A stretch of DNA of 42,111 bases from Patescibacteria group bacterium (GTDB taxonomy: Bacteria; Patescibacteriota; Patescibacteriia; 2-12-FULL-60-25). Location: NCBI GenBank assembly GCA_031082005.1, contig JAVHLR010000002.1, positions 1-42,111 of the forward strand, read 5' to 3'. The position numbers were made by a program, and so were the translations under genes. Below, piece after piece: positions 13,522-36,051 of the stretch (within the stretch, counting starts at the first letter, position 1; the number at the start of each line of letters is the position of its first letter). The notes below the pieces were generated by a model. That model was not told the DNA's origin. It saw nothing but the letters and a program-made list of their open reading frames with translations, and did no database searches.

Positions 13522-14010
13522 GTACGGTCACCGCGACTGTATTATCCACAACCGTGTGGAAAAGCTCTTTCTCTGCAGAAATCGCGTAAATCGCGAAAAA
13601 CAATCTCAATGGAGCCTTCGGGCGACAACCTCAAGCACTTTTTGTCTGCAATAGACTGATTACCACGCCTGTTACTTGGTGATCGATCTCATGCCCTAAC
13701 TCGTTCCGCTCCCTAGGGAGCACCGATACCAAAAAACAAAAGTAAAATTCCTATACTTAGGCACCCTCACCAACCGAGCCTGCGGGCTCAACCGAGGTAA
13801 TGCCGGGATCGGGTCGAGGCAGCAGCACCTTTTCTGAGACCAGGACGCTTAAATGTGTTCGCAACGTCTGCGCTAAGGCGCAACCCAGAAACCAACGGGA
13901 AGACGTTCTCGAATCATACGCACACACCGCAAGGTGTACTGCCGCGCCCAGGTCTGAAACCGCGCGGCCACTTATTCAAACAAGGGCCCTCCGCGGTTTC
14001 TTCTTTTTTT
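13522..14010 (+). ncRNA. candidate large structured RNA of unknown class, about 490 nt
   Basis: The stretch has no convincing coding frame but has a promoter at its start, a strong terminator at its end and many stable hairpins between. They are GCC-TTCG-GGC (13614-13623), GATTACCA/TGGTGATC (13658-13684), GCTCCC/GGGAGC (13708-13721), GAGCC-TGCG-GGCTC (13776-13789), an AACGTC/GACGTT stem (13863-13868 with 13902-13907) enclosing TGCGC-TAAG-GCGCA, and ACACC-GCAA-GGTGT (13924-13937). UUCG and GNRA loops are hallmarks of stable RNAs. I looked for tmRNA (tRNA-like ends, tag frame), RNase P (GAGGAAAGTCC, ACAGAA) and SRP RNA signatures and did not find them. A perfect DnaA box TTATCCACA (13542-13550) forms part of one 5' hairpin. 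The exact 5' end is predicted, not seen. Confidence 0.55.
13956..14010 (+). terminator. strong terminator of the large RNA
   Basis: GAAACCGCG (13956-13964) pairs with CGCGGTTTC (13992-14000), with inner GGCC/GGCC, followed by TTCTTTTTTT. Confidence 0.9.
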
Positions 14011-22278: not shown

Positions 22279-22428
22279 TTATCTAGCTTTCTTGACGACC
22301 AGACGCTTGCGTCCTGTAGCCCTCCGGCGGGATAAAACCTTGCGCCCATCGCTCGTTTTCATCCTGGAACGAAAACCGTGGACTTTCACATACCGGCGCT
22401 TTTTTGGTTGGTAAGTTCTCTTGGGCAT
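22279..22428 (-). CDS. rpmH: 50S ribosomal protein L34
   Basis: L34 is a tiny basic protein of the large ribosomal subunit. The 49-residue frame, read leftward, starts [19 protein letters not shown] and contains the family hallmarks RTYQPK, HGFRSRM and [16 protein letters not shown], as in every bacterial L34. Its divergent position from dnaA, followed by rnpA and yidD, is the standard origin arrangement. Length is slightly over the usual 44-46. It is preceded by its own promoter with TTGCCA/TAGTAT. Confidence 0.96.
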
Positions 22429-22452
22429 GTATTTAGCTTTAATTACCACCGA

Positions 22453-22481
22453 ATACTAGCATTTGTTTGGATTTTTGGCAA
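22453..22481 (-). promoter_or_regulatory. promoter of rpmH
   Basis: Minus-strand TTGCCA (22476-22481), 17-base spacer, TAGTAT (22453-22458). Confidence 0.5.
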
Positions 22482-22495
22482 GATGCGTATATACT

Positions 22496-22515
22496 TTATC
22501 CACTTTTTATCAACA
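22496..22515 (+). promoter_or_regulatory. two DnaA-box-like sites upstream of dnaA
   Basis: TTATCCACT (22496-22504) and TTATCAACA (22507-22515) lie in tandem between the rpmH and dnaA start regions, where DnaA boxes usually autoregulate dnaA. Confidence 0.65.
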
Positions 22516-22540
22516 GGTTTGACAATCAATCACCCGACTG

Positions 22541-22569
22541 TTGAGATGAAGCCAAGAAATTCCTTTAAT
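22541..22569 (+). promoter_or_regulatory. probable promoter of dnaA
   Basis: TTGAGA (22541-22546), 17-base spacer, TTTAAT (22564-22569), start expected about 6 bases before the ATG at 22582. An alternative is TTGACA (22519-22524) with TGAGAT (22542-22547). Confidence 0.4.
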
Positions 22570-22581
22570 ACGCGCGTTTTT

Positions 22582-23979
22582 ATGGACAATAATGAAATCT
22601 GGAGAGCAGCTTTAGGAGAACTGGAATTAACGCTGTCAAAAGCCAATTTCACCACCTGGTTCAAGAGTACTTTTATCGCTGCACTAGATAACAACAAGGT
22701 GGTCATCGCGGTTCCAAACACTTTCACTAAAGCCTGGCTGGAAAAAAAGTATCATGAATCCGTAGTACGCGCCCTGCGTAATGTTACCCAAACGAATATT
22801 AGAGATGTTTCATATCGCGTAGAGGTAAGAAACACGACAATCCTGCCGCAATTCGCGGATCAAACCGAAAGGTGCGAGGAAGCTCCATCCGTATTGACGC
22901 AAAAGGCAGAAACAACCCAATCTACCCAGGCCACATCAAACGAAAGCGGCTTAAACCCGCGTTACAGATTCAACTCTTTCGTGGTCGGCAAAGCCAATGA
23001 ACTTGCACATGCGGCAGCCATGGCCGTGGCAGCAAAACCCGGTGAAACCTATAATCCCTTATTCATCTATGGGGGTTCTGGATTGGGGAAAACACACCTA
23101 CTTCAAGCCATTGGACACCACGTCTCAAGCAGCAATCCTGACGCAAAAGTCCTCTATGCGACCTGTGAACGCTTTACGAACGAATTTATCCAAGCTGTGC
23201 GCGGGGGTCGCGGGAAGGACTTCAAAGACTCCTACCGAACAGTCGACCTCTTACTCATCGACGACATACAGTTCATGACAGGAAAAGAAGGGACCCAGGA
23301 AGAATTCTTCCATACCTTCAACACACTACATCAGAACAACAAGCAAATCGTGATAACCTCCGACCGCTCACCTAAAGACATCCAGGGGCTAGAGAGCAGG
23401 CTGTTAACCAGATTCGAATGGGGCATGATCACCGACGTATCAAGTCCGGACTTCGAAACGCGCGTCGCTATCCTTGAGGCTAAATCAAAGGAAAAAAACA
23501 TGGGTCTTTCTCCCGACATCCTGCGGTATGTCGCAGGCACAATTCAGGTGAACGTAAGGGAGTTGGAAGGCGCGCTCAATAAAATCGTGGCCTATCATCA
23601 ATTCAAGAATACTTCGCCATCACTTGAATCAGTGCAATCACTTCTCCAAAGCTTCGTCCCCAATGTGCCGAAACGCAATATCACTCCCAAACGACTATTG
23701 GAAATCGTGACGATGTATTTTGATGTGAGTATGGACGAGATCCTCGGAAAAAGCCGTGAACAAAGACTTGCTTTTCCGCGTCAGGTAGCCATGTTCTTAC
23801 TGCGTGAAGAGGGAAAGTGCTCATTTCCGGCCATTGGTGAACATCTGGGCGGCAGGGATCACACAACAGCCATGCACGCATGCAACAAGATCATCAACCA
23901 ACTTAAAAACGACGATCAACTAAAAAGAGATGTGTCTCTCATCAGGGAGAAGCTTTATGCGGGCAGCGGATCTGGGTAA
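22582..23979 (+). CDS. dnaA: chromosomal replication initiator protein DnaA
   Basis: DnaA binds origin boxes, unwinds oriC and loads helicase. The 465-residue form starting MDNNEIWRAALGELELTLSK matches the conserved N-terminus; the longer open frame back to 22378 would cover the rpmH region and is a shadow. Domain I is about 1-85 and domain II is a short Ser/Thr/Gln-rich linker. The AAA+ domain III has Walker A GGSGLGKT (about 164-171), Walker B LLLIDDIQF and the sensor/arginine-finger segment SRLLTRFEWG. Domain IV ends with the DNA-binding signature GRDHTTAMHACNKI. Length is normal. There is no Shine-Dalgarno. dnaN follows across a 217-base gap that looks like the origin. Confidence 0.98.
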   Translation: MDNNEIWRAALGELELTLSKANFTTWFKSTFIAALDNNKVVIAVPNTFTKAWLEKKYHESVVRALRNVTQTNIRDVSYRVEVRNTTILPQFADQTERCEEAPSVLTQKAETTQSTQATSNESGLNPRYRFNSFVVGKANELAHAAAMAVAAKPGETYNPLFIYGGSGLGKTHLLQAIGHHVSSSNPDAKVLYATCERFTNEFIQAVRGGRGKDFKDSYRTVDLLLIDDIQFMTGKEGTQEEFFHTFNTLHQNNKQIVITSDRSPKDIQGLESRLLTRFEWGMITDVSSPDFETRVAILEAKSKEKNMGLSPDILRYVAGTIQVNVRELEGALNKIVAYHQFKNTSPSLESVQSLLQSFVPNVPKRNITPKRLLEIVTMYFDVSMDEILGKSREQRLAFPRQVAMFLLREEGKCSFPAIGEHLGGRDHTTAMHACNKIINQLKNDDQLKRDVSLIREKLYAGSGSG

Positions 23980-24040
23980 AACCTGTGCGGCGGCTGTATC
24001 AAGGCTGTTGGTGAATCAGGAGGTCGGGGCGACAGAGCAA

Positions 24041-24185
24041 AAAGCATCAACAGAATCCACAGCTTAAACCCACACCGGAGGTTGATAAAAAAGAAGCGAA
24101 AGACCATAAATAATAAGGGTAAAAACACAACATCAACATTCCCACACCCCCTATTACTACTATTAATTAAATATTTATCTTTTAA
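24041..24185 (+). other. predicted replication origin (oriC) with DnaA-trio-like run
   Basis: Four DnaA-box-like motifs lie in the dnaA-dnaN gap: GCATCAACA (24044-24052), GAATCCACA (24053-24061), reverse GGTTGATAA (24080-24088) and ACATCAACA (24130-24138); ATTCCCACA (24138-24146) is a weaker one. A GC-rich patch follows, then five consecutive trinucleotides CTA-TTA-CTA-CTA-TTA (24151-24165) and an AT-rich tract to 24185. This order (box, GC cluster, trios, AT tract) matches the basal unwinding system described for Bacillus subtilis. Confidence 0.7.
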
Positions 24186-24196
24186 GACAGAAAGCT

Positions 24197-25327
24197 ATGC
24201 ATTTCGTATGTACCCAAGAAAACCTGATCCAGGGGTTGAACATGGTGGGCCATGTAGCAGGAAAGAACGTCAACCTGCCCGTATTGGGTAATGTCTTATT
24301 GAAGACAGAGAACGGCGCGCTTAAGCTCTCGTCGACGAATCTGGAGATTGCTGTGAGCTGTCTGGTGCGGGGCAAGGTAGAGGTGGAGGGCGAATACAGC
24401 GTTCCCGCAAAGTTGTTTTTGGATTATGTCTCCTTGTTGCCTTCAGGTAAGGTCGAACTTGTGCTGATCGAGGATGGGTTGGAGGTAAAGTCCGGCGATC
24501 AGGAGACTGTGTTAAAAGGGATTTCGGCTGCGGAGTTTCCGTTGTTGCCGAAGTTGGCCAAAGATGGAGGTTATAGTTTTTCTGCGCTCGACCTGAAAAG
24601 AGCGTTGTCGCAAGTCGTCTTTGCAGTTTCGACTTCACAGTCACGTCCGGAGCTGATGGGGGTCGCGTGTTTTATGGATGGCGGGGATGCTTCTCCGGCA
24701 GCTGTGTTCGTGGCCACGGATTCGTATCGTCTCGCAGAACGTAAACAACCCTTTTCGGGTAATGGCAGCGGCTCGCGATATATCGTTCCTGCTAAGGCCT
24801 TCCTGGAGATGATGCGCATCTTGGGGGCGTATAAGGACGAGTTGAGCGCTCCAGAGAACGTGACGTTGAACTTCACGGAGAATCAGTTAGTGGCGACGCT
24901 GGGGAGCGTAGATTTGATTTCGCGCCTGATTGAAGGGTTTTTCCCTGACTACAAGCAGATAATCCCGCAACAGTTCAAAACCGAAGCTGTGTTGTCGCGT
25001 GCAGAGCTTCAGAAGGCGGTAAGGGCGGCGAGTTTGTTTTCCAAACAGGGTTTGTTTGATGTGCATGTTTCTTTCGATCCGGAAGCTTCAACCTGTACAA
25101 TCGAGTCTGCTGATCAGGGAACGGGAAAAACCAAGACAGTGCTGAAGGGTGAAGTGAAGGGTGTGGTGAACGAGGTGACGTTGAACTTTAGGTTCTTGGG
25201 CGACGGTCTGGCGGCAATGAGTGGAGATAAGGTCAGGATCAAGCAGATAGACTCTCTCAACCCAGTTTTGGTCACTCCAGAGGGAGATGATGGGTATAGA
25301 TATATTGTGATGCCTATTCGTCAGTAG
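24197..25327 (+). CDS. dnaN: DNA polymerase III beta subunit (sliding clamp)
   Basis: The clamp encircles DNA and tethers the replicative polymerase. The 376-residue protein is full length with three similar domains (about 1-120, 125-250, 252-376). Visible landmarks are LPVLGNVLLKTENGALKLSSTNLEIA in domain 1, VFVATDSYRLAERK in domain 2, and the C-terminal YRYIVMPIRQ, which corresponds to the usual M-P-x-R/M-x end. dnaA and the predicted origin lie upstream, a long bidirectional terminator downstream. No clear Shine-Dalgarno precedes the ATG. Confidence 0.97.
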   Translation: MHFVCTQENLIQGLNMVGHVAGKNVNLPVLGNVLLKTENGALKLSSTNLEIAVSCLVRGKVEVEGEYSVPAKLFLDYVSLLPSGKVELVLIEDGLEVKSGDQETVLKGISAAEFPLLPKLAKDGGYSFSALDLKRALSQVVFAVSTSQSRPELMGVACFMDGGDASPAAVFVATDSYRLAERKQPFSGNGSGSRYIVPAKAFLEMMRILGAYKDELSAPENVTLNFTENQLVATLGSVDLISRLIEGFFPDYKQIIPQQFKTEAVLSRAELQKAVRAASLFSKQGLFDVHVSFDPEASTCTIESADQGTGKTKTVLKGEVKGVVNEVTLNFRFLGDGLAAMSGDKVRIKQIDSLNPVLVTPEGDDGYRYIVMPIRQ

Positions 25328-33869: not shown

Positions 33870-33943
33870 GTCTCCATAGTTCAAGGGAAGAATAAGGGAC
33901 TCCTAAGCCCTAGATGGTGGTTCGATTCCACCTGGAGACACCA
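33870..33943 (+). tRNA. tRNA-Arg (anticodon CCT)
   Basis: Acceptor GTCTCCA/TGGAGAC, D arm GTTC/GAAT, anticodon loop CTCCTAA, T arm GGTGG-TTCGATT-CCACC and encoded CCA are visible. The anticodon CCU reads AGG. Pair 31-39 is an A-G mismatch, which is an oddity of the stem. Confidence 0.9.
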
Positions 33944-33984
33944 GGAAAGTATTTCATCCGAATATTGTCCCGGTGTCTCCAAAT

Positions 33985-34000
33985 TGTTTCACGTGAAACA
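33985..34000. promoter_or_regulatory. parS site 1
   Basis: Perfect TGTTTCACGTGAAACA between the two tRNA genes. It matches the ParB-binding consensus of chromosomal parS. Confidence 0.8.
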
Positions 34001-34003
34001 TTT

Positions 34004-34079
34004 GGGCCGATAGCTCAGTTGGTAGAGCGCTGCATTCGCATTGCAGAGGTCGGGGGTTCGAATCCCCCTCGGTCCACCA
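34004..34079 (+). tRNA. tRNA-Ala (anticodon CGC)
   Basis: All arms are present: acceptor GGGCCGA/TCGGTCC with the G3-U70 wobble that marks tRNA-Ala, D arm GCTC/GAGC, anticodon stem CTGCA/TGCAG with loop TTCGCAT, T arm GGGGG-TTCGAAT-CCCCC and encoded CCA. The anticodon CGC reads GCG. Confidence 0.95.
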
Positions 34080-34147
34080 TGAGTAAGATCGCCATACGGC
34101 GATTTTATTTTTTTTAGGAAACGATGCGTTATGATTTTTTTCAAAAT

Positions 34148-34163
34148 TGTTTCACGTGAAACA
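34148..34163. promoter_or_regulatory. parS site 2
   Basis: Perfect TGTTTCACGTGAAACA. The dyad symmetry extends 7 bases further on each side (TCAAAAT/ATTTTGA). Confidence 0.8.
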
Positions 34164-34271
34164 ATTTTGAAAATGAATTTTCTAGCAGATCGTGTATTTC
34201 ATGCATTTGAGCTAATTGCGCTGTATGACACTTTGATGGCAACTATTTTTTAACATCGACATGTTTCAAAT

Positions 34272-34287
34272 TGTTTCACGTGAAACA
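34272..34287. promoter_or_regulatory. parS site 3
   Basis: Perfect TGTTTCACGTGAAACA with the symmetric flank TCAAAT/ATTTGA. Confidence 0.8.
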
Positions 34288-34454
34288 ATTTGAGATTAAT
34301 GTACTCGTTATCCAAATTATTTGTGCTATGAAAATCTACTTTTTAGAGATGTTGGTTCTCTTAGTTTAGATAGTATTGTTTAGTTGCTGTCGGCTTAGGA
34401 AGTTTGTCATACAATTGAAAGCTTATACAGTTGAAGCGCCATGTCTTTCAAAAT

Positions 34455-34470
34455 TGTTTCACGTGAAACA
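34455..34470. promoter_or_regulatory. parS site 4
   Basis: Perfect TGTTTCACGTGAAACA, with AAAAT/ATTTT symmetric flanks. Confidence 0.8.
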
Positions 34471-34636
34471 ATTTTTAAATTAAATAAGTAAATTAACGAA
34501 AATGAATTTTGTTTTTGTTTTGGAACATGATTTAACTTATTTAGTCTAAGATGTGGGTGCTTGTTTGGTTATCTCGTGCGTATCCGCGTTCATGGCTTTT
34601 ATAAAAAAATAGGGAATTGTTTATCTTTAAAAAAAA

Positions 34637-34652
34637 TGTTTCACGTGAAACA
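34637..34652. promoter_or_regulatory. parS site 5
   Basis: Perfect TGTTTCACGTGAAACA; flanks are not symmetric. Confidence 0.8.
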
Positions 34653-34822
34653 ATTGCAAAACACCAAATAACTAGGTAAAACTCTCGTATGAGTGTTAAA
34701 AATTTATTTGAGACAAATTTAACACTTATTGATTGATTTGTTTATAGAACGCGCTAATGACAGATCGGGCACTGAGATACCAGATATGAATAATCATAAG
34801 AACGAGGTACAAGGGGAAAAAT

Positions 34823-34838
34823 TGTTTCACGTGAAACA
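34823..34838. promoter_or_regulatory. parS site 6
   Basis: Perfect TGTTTCACGTGAAACA with AAAT-like/ATTT symmetric flanks. Confidence 0.8.
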
Positions 34839-35031
34839 ATTTGTAATTATGAATTTACTTATTGCGAAAAGGATTTGAGGGTTTGAGCGATTAGTTTGGA
34901 GTAGCGATCGAGATATTTGGATGTATTAAGAAATGAGCAAAAGGACGTTCTGCTTTCATGGTTGTTCTGTTTTAAAAAATTGCTGCGTTAATGTACATCG
35001 GTTGTTAAATTGATTGTATGGAGTGTAAAAA

Positions 35032-35047
35032 TGTTTCACGTGAAACA
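35032..35047. promoter_or_regulatory. parS site 7
   Basis: Perfect TGTTTCACGTGAAACA with AAA/TTT flanks, about 70 bases before the surface-protein gene. Confidence 0.8.
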
Positions 35048-35081
35048 TTTATTATGAATTTTACGACGCATAACAGTATTC

Positions 35082-35110
35082 TTTAAAAAATACTAAATTT
35101 AGGCTATAAT
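35082..35110 (+). promoter_or_regulatory. promoter of the first surface-protein gene
   Basis: TTTAAA (35082-35087), 17-base spacer, perfect TATAAT (35105-35110). The start is predicted within a few bases of the ATG at 35119. Confidence 0.65.
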
Positions 35111-35118
35111 TCTAGCGC

Positions 35119-36051
35119 ATGAGAAGCTCTGGCTTGTTGATGCGGATGAGTATTTTATTGATACTTAGTTTTTCTATTGTAAATTTACACGTTTTTGCCA
35201 TGACGAGCACTAACTATCAAATAAACTGGGACTCAATTAACAGCGGTGGTGATGATATATCCACATCCACTAATTACTCACTGCATGACACGGTGGGAGA
35301 GCAGGCGACGGGTGAATCAACTAGTACTAATTACTCAATAAGCGCTGGCTATAGGGTGGGAGAGGGTGAAGAGGCACAATTGAGTTTTAATTTAGGAACT
35401 CAAGAGGATGCAACTGGATCGGCGTATACTGTTTTTAACAATGCCGGTTTGTTTGTGACTGTCAATTCAACCTCTAGTTTTTCCGTTGATGACATGATTG
35501 GTGTTGTGGAAAATATGGGATTATCCCAGATTATTGCAGTCGGAAAGATAACTTCAATCTCGGGTTTTGATGTCTATGTGGATCAATGGGACGGCTCTCC
35601 GGGGAGTTTGAGTGCATCGCCGGCGGGGGGTGATGACTTTGTCTATAGATTAAATGGGAATTCAATTGATTTCGGTACTTTGAGCGCTTCGACAGGGAAG
35701 ACATCCTTGACAGCAACGAGGGTGACATCTGATGCGCAGAACGGTTATACTGTATATGTCAGCGAAAACCATGATTTGTGGTATTCGACTACTACGGCAA
35801 TCCTGGATGTAGCTGATGGAACGGTCACAGTGGGTAGTGAAGAATATGGGTGGGAAGTTTTTGGTTCCGGTGCAACCAGCACGGGTTCGGATTATGCTTT
35901 TACGACGACGACACGGGCAATCCAGCAGTCGAGTGCAGTCGCGACGACGGAAGAGAGAGTCGGGTTTGTGTATAAGATATCGATAAATAATAACACCCCA
36001 GCGGGGAATTATTCGCACCTTGTTTATTACACTGTAACGGCAAATTATTGA
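35119..36051 (+). CDS. secreted beta-rich surface protein, WxL-like C-terminus
   Basis: The 310-residue protein begins with a signal peptide (hydrophobic residues about 7-27, then VFAMT). The mature chain is Ser/Thr/Gly-rich and beta-strand predicted. Two short repeats near the N-terminus, TSTNYQINWDSINSGGDDIS and TSTNYSISAGYRVGEG, share the TSTNYxI start. The C-terminal 25 residues (SINNNTPAGNYSHLVYYTVTANY) closely resemble those of the 336-residue protein next door (TSGTPAGSYSQTVTYYVTATY), so the two share a terminal domain, similar in style to WxL-domain ends, though no W-x-L is present. It is probably displayed at the cell surface. It seems leaderless. The function is unknown. Confidence 0.85.
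   Translation: MRSSGLLMRMSILLILSFSIVNLHVFAMTSTNYQINWDSINSGGDDISTSTNYSLHDTVGEQATGESTSTNYSISAGYRVGEGEEAQLSFNLGTQEDATGSAYTVFNNAGLFVTVNSTSSFSVDDMIGVVENMGLSQIIAVGKITSISGFDVYVDQWDGSPGSLSASPAGGDDFVYRLNGNSIDFGTLSASTGKTSLTATRVTSDAQNGYTVYVSENHDLWYSTTTAILDVADGTVTVGSEEYGWEVFGSGATSTGSDYAFTTTTRAIQQSSAVATTEERVGFVYKISINNNTPAGNYSHLVYYTVTANY

Follow-up and report, generated by a model that had tools for sequence, protein, structure and literature searches.

A compact cluster of seven parS sites near the origin of a patescibacterial chromosome, remote from parA and parB

The stretch of DNA analyzed here (42,111 bases, referred to as the window) contains seven exact copies of the palindrome TGTTTCACGTGAAACA between positions 33985 and 35047. 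The first-pass annotation read these copies as a dedicated ParB-binding centromere, in a window without parA or parB. This raises the question of whether such a cluster serves the chromosome as its centromere and, if so, where the proteins that act on it are encoded. We conclude that the array is very probably a chromosomal ParABS centromere, about 10 kb from the dnaA-dnaN genes. A cluster of parS sites close to the origin is a well-known element, and what is unusual here is the remoteness of parA and parB.

The parS array and its origin-proximal setting

The array and its surroundings comprise the following features.

22378-25327, plus strand: dnaA (22378-23979) and dnaN (24197-25327), markers of the origin region
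33870-33943, plus strand: tRNA-Arg (CCT), which bounds the array on the left; conserved
33985-34000, unstranded: parS site 1, exact match, between tRNA-Arg(CCT) and tRNA-Ala(CGC); a site at this junction recurs in many relatives
34004-34079, plus strand: tRNA-Ala (CGC), embedded after parS site 1
34080-35118, unstranded: gene-free, A+T-rich stretch (G+C 0.31) in which sites 2 to 7 lie; no stop-to-stop run exceeds 66 aa
34081-34110, plus strand: terminator-like hairpin 3′ of tRNA-Ala (consensus match only) that would insulate the six-site stretch
34148-34163, unstranded: parS site 2, exact match, core of a perfect 36-bp palindrome
34272-34287, unstranded: parS site 3, exact match
34455-34470, unstranded: parS site 4, exact match, within a near-perfect extended dyad (34446-34479)
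34637-34652, unstranded: parS site 5, exact match
34823-34838, unstranded: parS site 6, exact match
35032-35047, unstranded: parS site 7, exact match, 71 bases 5′ of the start codon of the secreted-protein gene
35082-35110, plus strand: promoter-like site TTTAAA-17-TATAAT (consensus match only), between parS site 7 and the secreted-protein open reading frame (ORF)
35119-36051, plus strand: secreted or surface protein gene, 310 aa, conserved right neighbor of the array

All seven copies match TGTTNCACGTGAAACA, the consensus of the 16-bp parS palindrome given in PMC7022226, in agreement with the identification of the 16-mer as parS. Shuffled sequence contained on average 0.31 matches, and no shuffle reached seven. 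An eighth copy with up to three mismatches was not found in the window, and a search of the 1,312,237-base genome, allowing two mismatches, returned none beyond the seven, which excludes dispersal of the 16-mer at high copy number.

The steps between successive sites measure 163, 124, 183, 182, 186, and 209 bases, as first described. The three nearly equal lengths are real, but their regularity looks accidental, given that 108 spacings from the family, which range from 25 to 797 bases, showed neither helical phasing nor regular site spacing. Dyad symmetry does extend past the 16-mer at several sites, for example over the 36 bp at 34138-34173. Across the family, predicted pairing beyond the 16-mer exceeded that of shuffled sequence out to ±12, which is suggestive only, because related sites are not independent. 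An origin of the array by duplication of a repeat unit was considered and rejected; the copies share the palindromes and only a few flanking bases.

From position 34148 onward, six sites lie, as had been claimed, in a gene-free stretch of 1,039 bases between the end of tRNA-Ala (34079) and the next ORF (35119), with a G+C content of 0.31 versus 0.50 for the window. Two tRNAs had been placed at the edge of the array. Both are present, but site 1 falls between them rather than outside both. The surface-protein gene reported as the other neighbor corresponds to the 310-aa ORF, which is conserved in the family; the protein had no match among Pfam families, and its gene probably does not belong to the centromere. 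Given the terminator-like hairpin downstream of tRNA-Ala and the promoter-like site in front of the ORF, both of them consensus matches, transcription probably enters the six-site stretch from neither side. At 33943-33985, immediately before site 1, GGTGTCTCC repeats the 3′ end of tRNA-Arg (GGAGACACC) in inverted orientation. The pair is possibly the terminator stem of tRNA-Arg, and an inverted copy of this type is also present in a sister genome of the same genus, G003.

Site 1 lies 9.8 kb from the dnaA-dnaN gap, in agreement with the distance of about 10 kb first noted, and the GC skew shifts to strongly positive values at around 24 kb in the window. The contig that carries the array encodes dnaA, dnaN, polA, tig, and pnp. 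A plasmid partition locus was considered and rejected, as the scanned proteins of this contig included none identified as a plasmid replication protein. Two facing DnaA-box-like sites (TTATCCACA and TTTTCCACA) were seen at 13542-13563, 9 kb before dnaA; this pattern is absent from the dnaA-dnaN gap.

A remote parA-parB operon linked to scpA-scpB

Neither parA nor parB occurs in the 42,111-base window, as the first-pass annotation had stated. The genome-wide check that it proposed revealed a single complete parA-parB operon outside the window. The only ParB gene of the genome carrying the array (G000) lies at G000:C3:392,342-393,268, and its product contains the Pfam domains PF02195, PF17762, and PF23552. 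Directly upstream is the gene for a 258-aa ParA (PF13614) with an intact Walker motif. The G000 assembly consists of seven contigs, with parAB on contig C3 (1,241,385 bases) and the array on a separate contig of 42,111 bases. Because of this fragmentation, the distance between the two loci assumes one chromosome; on that assumption, the array and parAB are separated by at least 392 kb in either direction. In G003, where both loci share a contig, they are 389 kb apart; the corresponding figure for G049, a genome from outside the family, is 216 kb. Thus, parAB is unlinked from parS wherever the distance could be measured (G000, G003, and G049), and its absence from the window is explained by an operon that sits 0.39 Mb or more away. 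According to a review, parAB adjoins parS in most bacteria, in contrast to the arrangement found here. Proximity of parAB to oriC and parS is a usual but not a required feature, and the combination of parS at the origin with parAB elsewhere indicates that linkage between the two is not needed.

The operon belongs to a continuous stretch (G000:C3 384.9-393.3 kb; L006:923-9272) in the order scpA, scpB, a D-Ala-D-Ala carboxypeptidase gene, a glycosyltransferase gene, an unassigned ORF, a HAD hydrolase gene, parA, and parB. This places scpA-scpB 7 kb upstream of parB in G000, and scpA is found near parB in most relatives.

The encoded ParB retains the CTP-binding motifs GERR (as GERRLR) and ENIQR together with a parS-type recognition helix. 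Absence of any ParB homologue had been named as the finding that would speak against a centromere, and with a ParB of this kind encoded in the genome, the reading stands. Four positions, 173, 179, 184, and 201, set the specificity for parS versus the Noc site (PMC7383237; position 201 is in Caulobacter numbering and corresponds to residue 206 of this ParB). They are occupied by Arg, Thr, Asn, and Ser, respectively. Arg at 173 and the lack of Lys or Arg at 179 and 184 point to a parS-type ParB under the rule of that study, in which Arg173 and Gly201 go with parS. Ser at 201, the equivalent of Caulobacter Gly201, was present in every family genome read (31 of 31). Gly201 is reported as absolutely conserved in about 1,800 ParB orthologs, although in a library scan ParB with Ser at this position still bound parS specifically (PMC7383237).

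Conservation of the array and comparison with other parS clusters

Comparison across relatives, as had been proposed, placed the array at the same position in the 25 family genomes whose contigs reach there, with 1 to 10 sites at the tRNA-Arg(CCT)/tRNA-Ala(CGC) pair. A homologue of the 310-aa ORF follows downstream where the contig continues. In most of these genomes, 10 to 13 kb separate the array from dnaA; in G023, the block is about 20 kb away and intact, and in G016 and G035 it is inverted yet intact. Two genomes from beyond the family, G049 and G052, share the association of parS with this tRNA pair. Between the sites, the sequence has diverged even relative to G003, which belongs to the same genus, while the sites themselves are mostly exact. 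About ten family genomes contained no parS with up to one mismatch; several of these are fragmented assemblies broken before the array, and for several, apparent loss of parS was therefore discarded in favor of contig ends. In two others of these genomes (contigs G018:C5, L329; G006:C67, L312), the secreted-protein gene is present, and no parS-like site with up to three mismatches was found in the adjoining DNA examined. The conserved position, together with the parA-parB operon, the ParB motifs, and the parS-type helix, supports the proposal of a dedicated ParB-binding centromere. Ser at ParB position 201, the remoteness of parAB, and the family genomes lacking a parS match speak against it.

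The view of a tight array of identical sites as exceptional did not hold, since such arrays are the rule in the family and occur in other phyla as well. Among 119 listed contigs, which were chosen for two parS sites 160 to 190 bases apart, at least seven loci have seven exact parS sites within 1,063 bases. The seven-copy compact arrays among the matches listed (L099, L104, L113, L083, L057, L120, and L123) come from Bacilli, Lachnospiraceae, other Clostridia, and Thermosporothrix and resemble the present one in holding seven exact sites in 1.06 kb. Hence, the compactness of the array is not new. Unlike here, parB was found in the adjoining DNA examined for 11 of the 36 arrays with at least five sites among the matches listed.

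Myxococcus xanthus, with 24 parS sites near ori, likewise combines many clustered origin-proximal sites with a canonical ParA/ParB pair (PMC3778016). In M. xanthus, however, the sites immediately precede parAB and are located about 30 kb from ori (PMC3778016), whereas here parAB is 0.39 Mb or more from the array and beside scpAB. Together with the arrays from other phyla, this precedent makes the parS cluster a known sort of element. Multiple copies of parS near the origin are described as a general rule in PMC7022226. Pseudomonas aeruginosa also has several parS sites near oriC, parS1 to parS4, and a single one of them can be enough for segregation; in contrast to the present sites, these are reported as TGTTCCACGTGGAACA-type, and the excerpts of the two papers describe no all-identical intergenic array of one kilobase for this species (PMC7022226 and PMC4368675).

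Proposed role, alternatives, and a possible altered segregation system

By analogy with these systems, we infer that the array would be the place of ParB binding, of sliding and spreading, of segregation, and of SMC loading. ParB made at least 0.39 Mb away would load at the seven parS sites as a CTP-dependent sliding clamp, and the clamps would spread over the origin region. ParA would then move the ParB-parS complex so that sister origins separate, and the complex would probably recruit SMC-ScpAB to the origin region as well. Several close sites could form one robust loading platform, with their exact number and spacing being immaterial.

A different emphasis would make the array mainly a loading platform for SMC-ScpAB, from which condensin zips the arms together starting at the origin, with movement by ParA being secondary. 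The genome has an smc gene, a compact cluster rather than scattered sites would give a single loading point, and the proximity of scpA to parB noted above fits such a role. The intact Walker motif of the ParA encoded beside ParB argues against this emphasis, as does the SMC itself. This protein of 748 aa, conserved throughout the family and encoded on the minus strand at G000:C3 about 1142756-1145002 (L243:2257-4503), scores above the SMC_prok_B cut-off and has intact heads and shortened arms, but Pfam detected no hinge in it, and therefore loading may differ. An above-cut-off hinge was likewise found in none of the 36 family genomes; in the class sample it was found in 2 of 57 genomes (G050 and G038, from two other families). 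In the alignment, the 748-aa protein keeps about 70 residues where G050 and G038 have the hinge and longer arms, and it may possibly hold a reduced, unrecognized hinge. Our literature search on hinge-less SMC proteins found nothing relevant. We consider a primarily SMC-loading array rather unlikely, and such a role does not exclude a centromere.

It is very improbable that the array is instead a ParB-dependent regulator of the secreted-protein gene (35119-36051) or of the tRNAs and no centromere at all. Site 7 does lie 71 bases before the ORF, with the promoter-like site in between; the ORF is a conserved neighbor in the family, and in P. aeruginosa some genes next to parS are repressed by ParB (PMC7022226). 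However, these are canonical parS sites close to the origin, ParB would otherwise be left without a centromere in a genome that has no other parS, and G049 has parS at the tRNA junction without the secreted-protein ORF.

That the palindromes are binding sites for Noc, the ParB paralogue of nucleoid occlusion in Firmicutes with a related 16-bp palindrome (NBS), or else unrelated hairpins or terminators, is hardly credible: the best relative of this ParB among solved structures is Noc and the palindrome at 34138-34173 scores as terminator-like, but two positions in each half distinguish parS from the Noc site (PMC7383237), the residues Gln173, Lys179, Lys184, and Arg201 of Noc are missing from the ParB, so that both target and specificity residues are unlike those of Noc, and terminators would leave seven identical copies unexplained, only one of which was flagged as terminator-like.

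Read as a ParABS centromere, the array provides a defined, testable centromere for uncultured bacteria with reduced genomes, and the arrays of 1 to 10 sites that occur across the family form a natural series for questions of copy number and spacing. Our literature search found no relevant paper on parS or chromosome segregation sites in Patescibacteria. Less ordinary than the array itself are the unlinked parAB, Ser201 of ParB, the covariation of ParB residue 204 with parS, and the SMC with its missing hinge; the last two would matter more, if confirmed. A tentative and somewhat doubtful extension is that the system for origin segregation is altered in this lineage of Uhrbacteria-related Patescibacteria, with parS at a tRNA junction, remote parAB linked to scpAB, Ser201, the 204-parS covariation, and loss of the SMC hinge. 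As part of that extension, the SMC loaded at the array would have shed the hinge along with much of the arms, leaving a tip of about 70 residues.

The covariation was compiled from the ParB sequences of L155-L184 and L335-L353 and the parS variants in L355-L374. Residue 204 was Arg in all seven class-sample families with TGTTTCACGTGAAACA, two of them by one-mismatch sites only, and Lys in all five with exact TGTTCCACGTGGAACA. With families as units, Fisher's test gave a P value of 0.0013, which is optimistic because families are related. Arg204 and Lys204, tracking the TTTC and TTCC forms of parS, possibly represent a natural specificity covariation. The TTTC form was present in 27 of 36 family genomes versus 110 of 381 genomes in a class-wide sample, and one family genome, G029, also carries a stray TTCC site.
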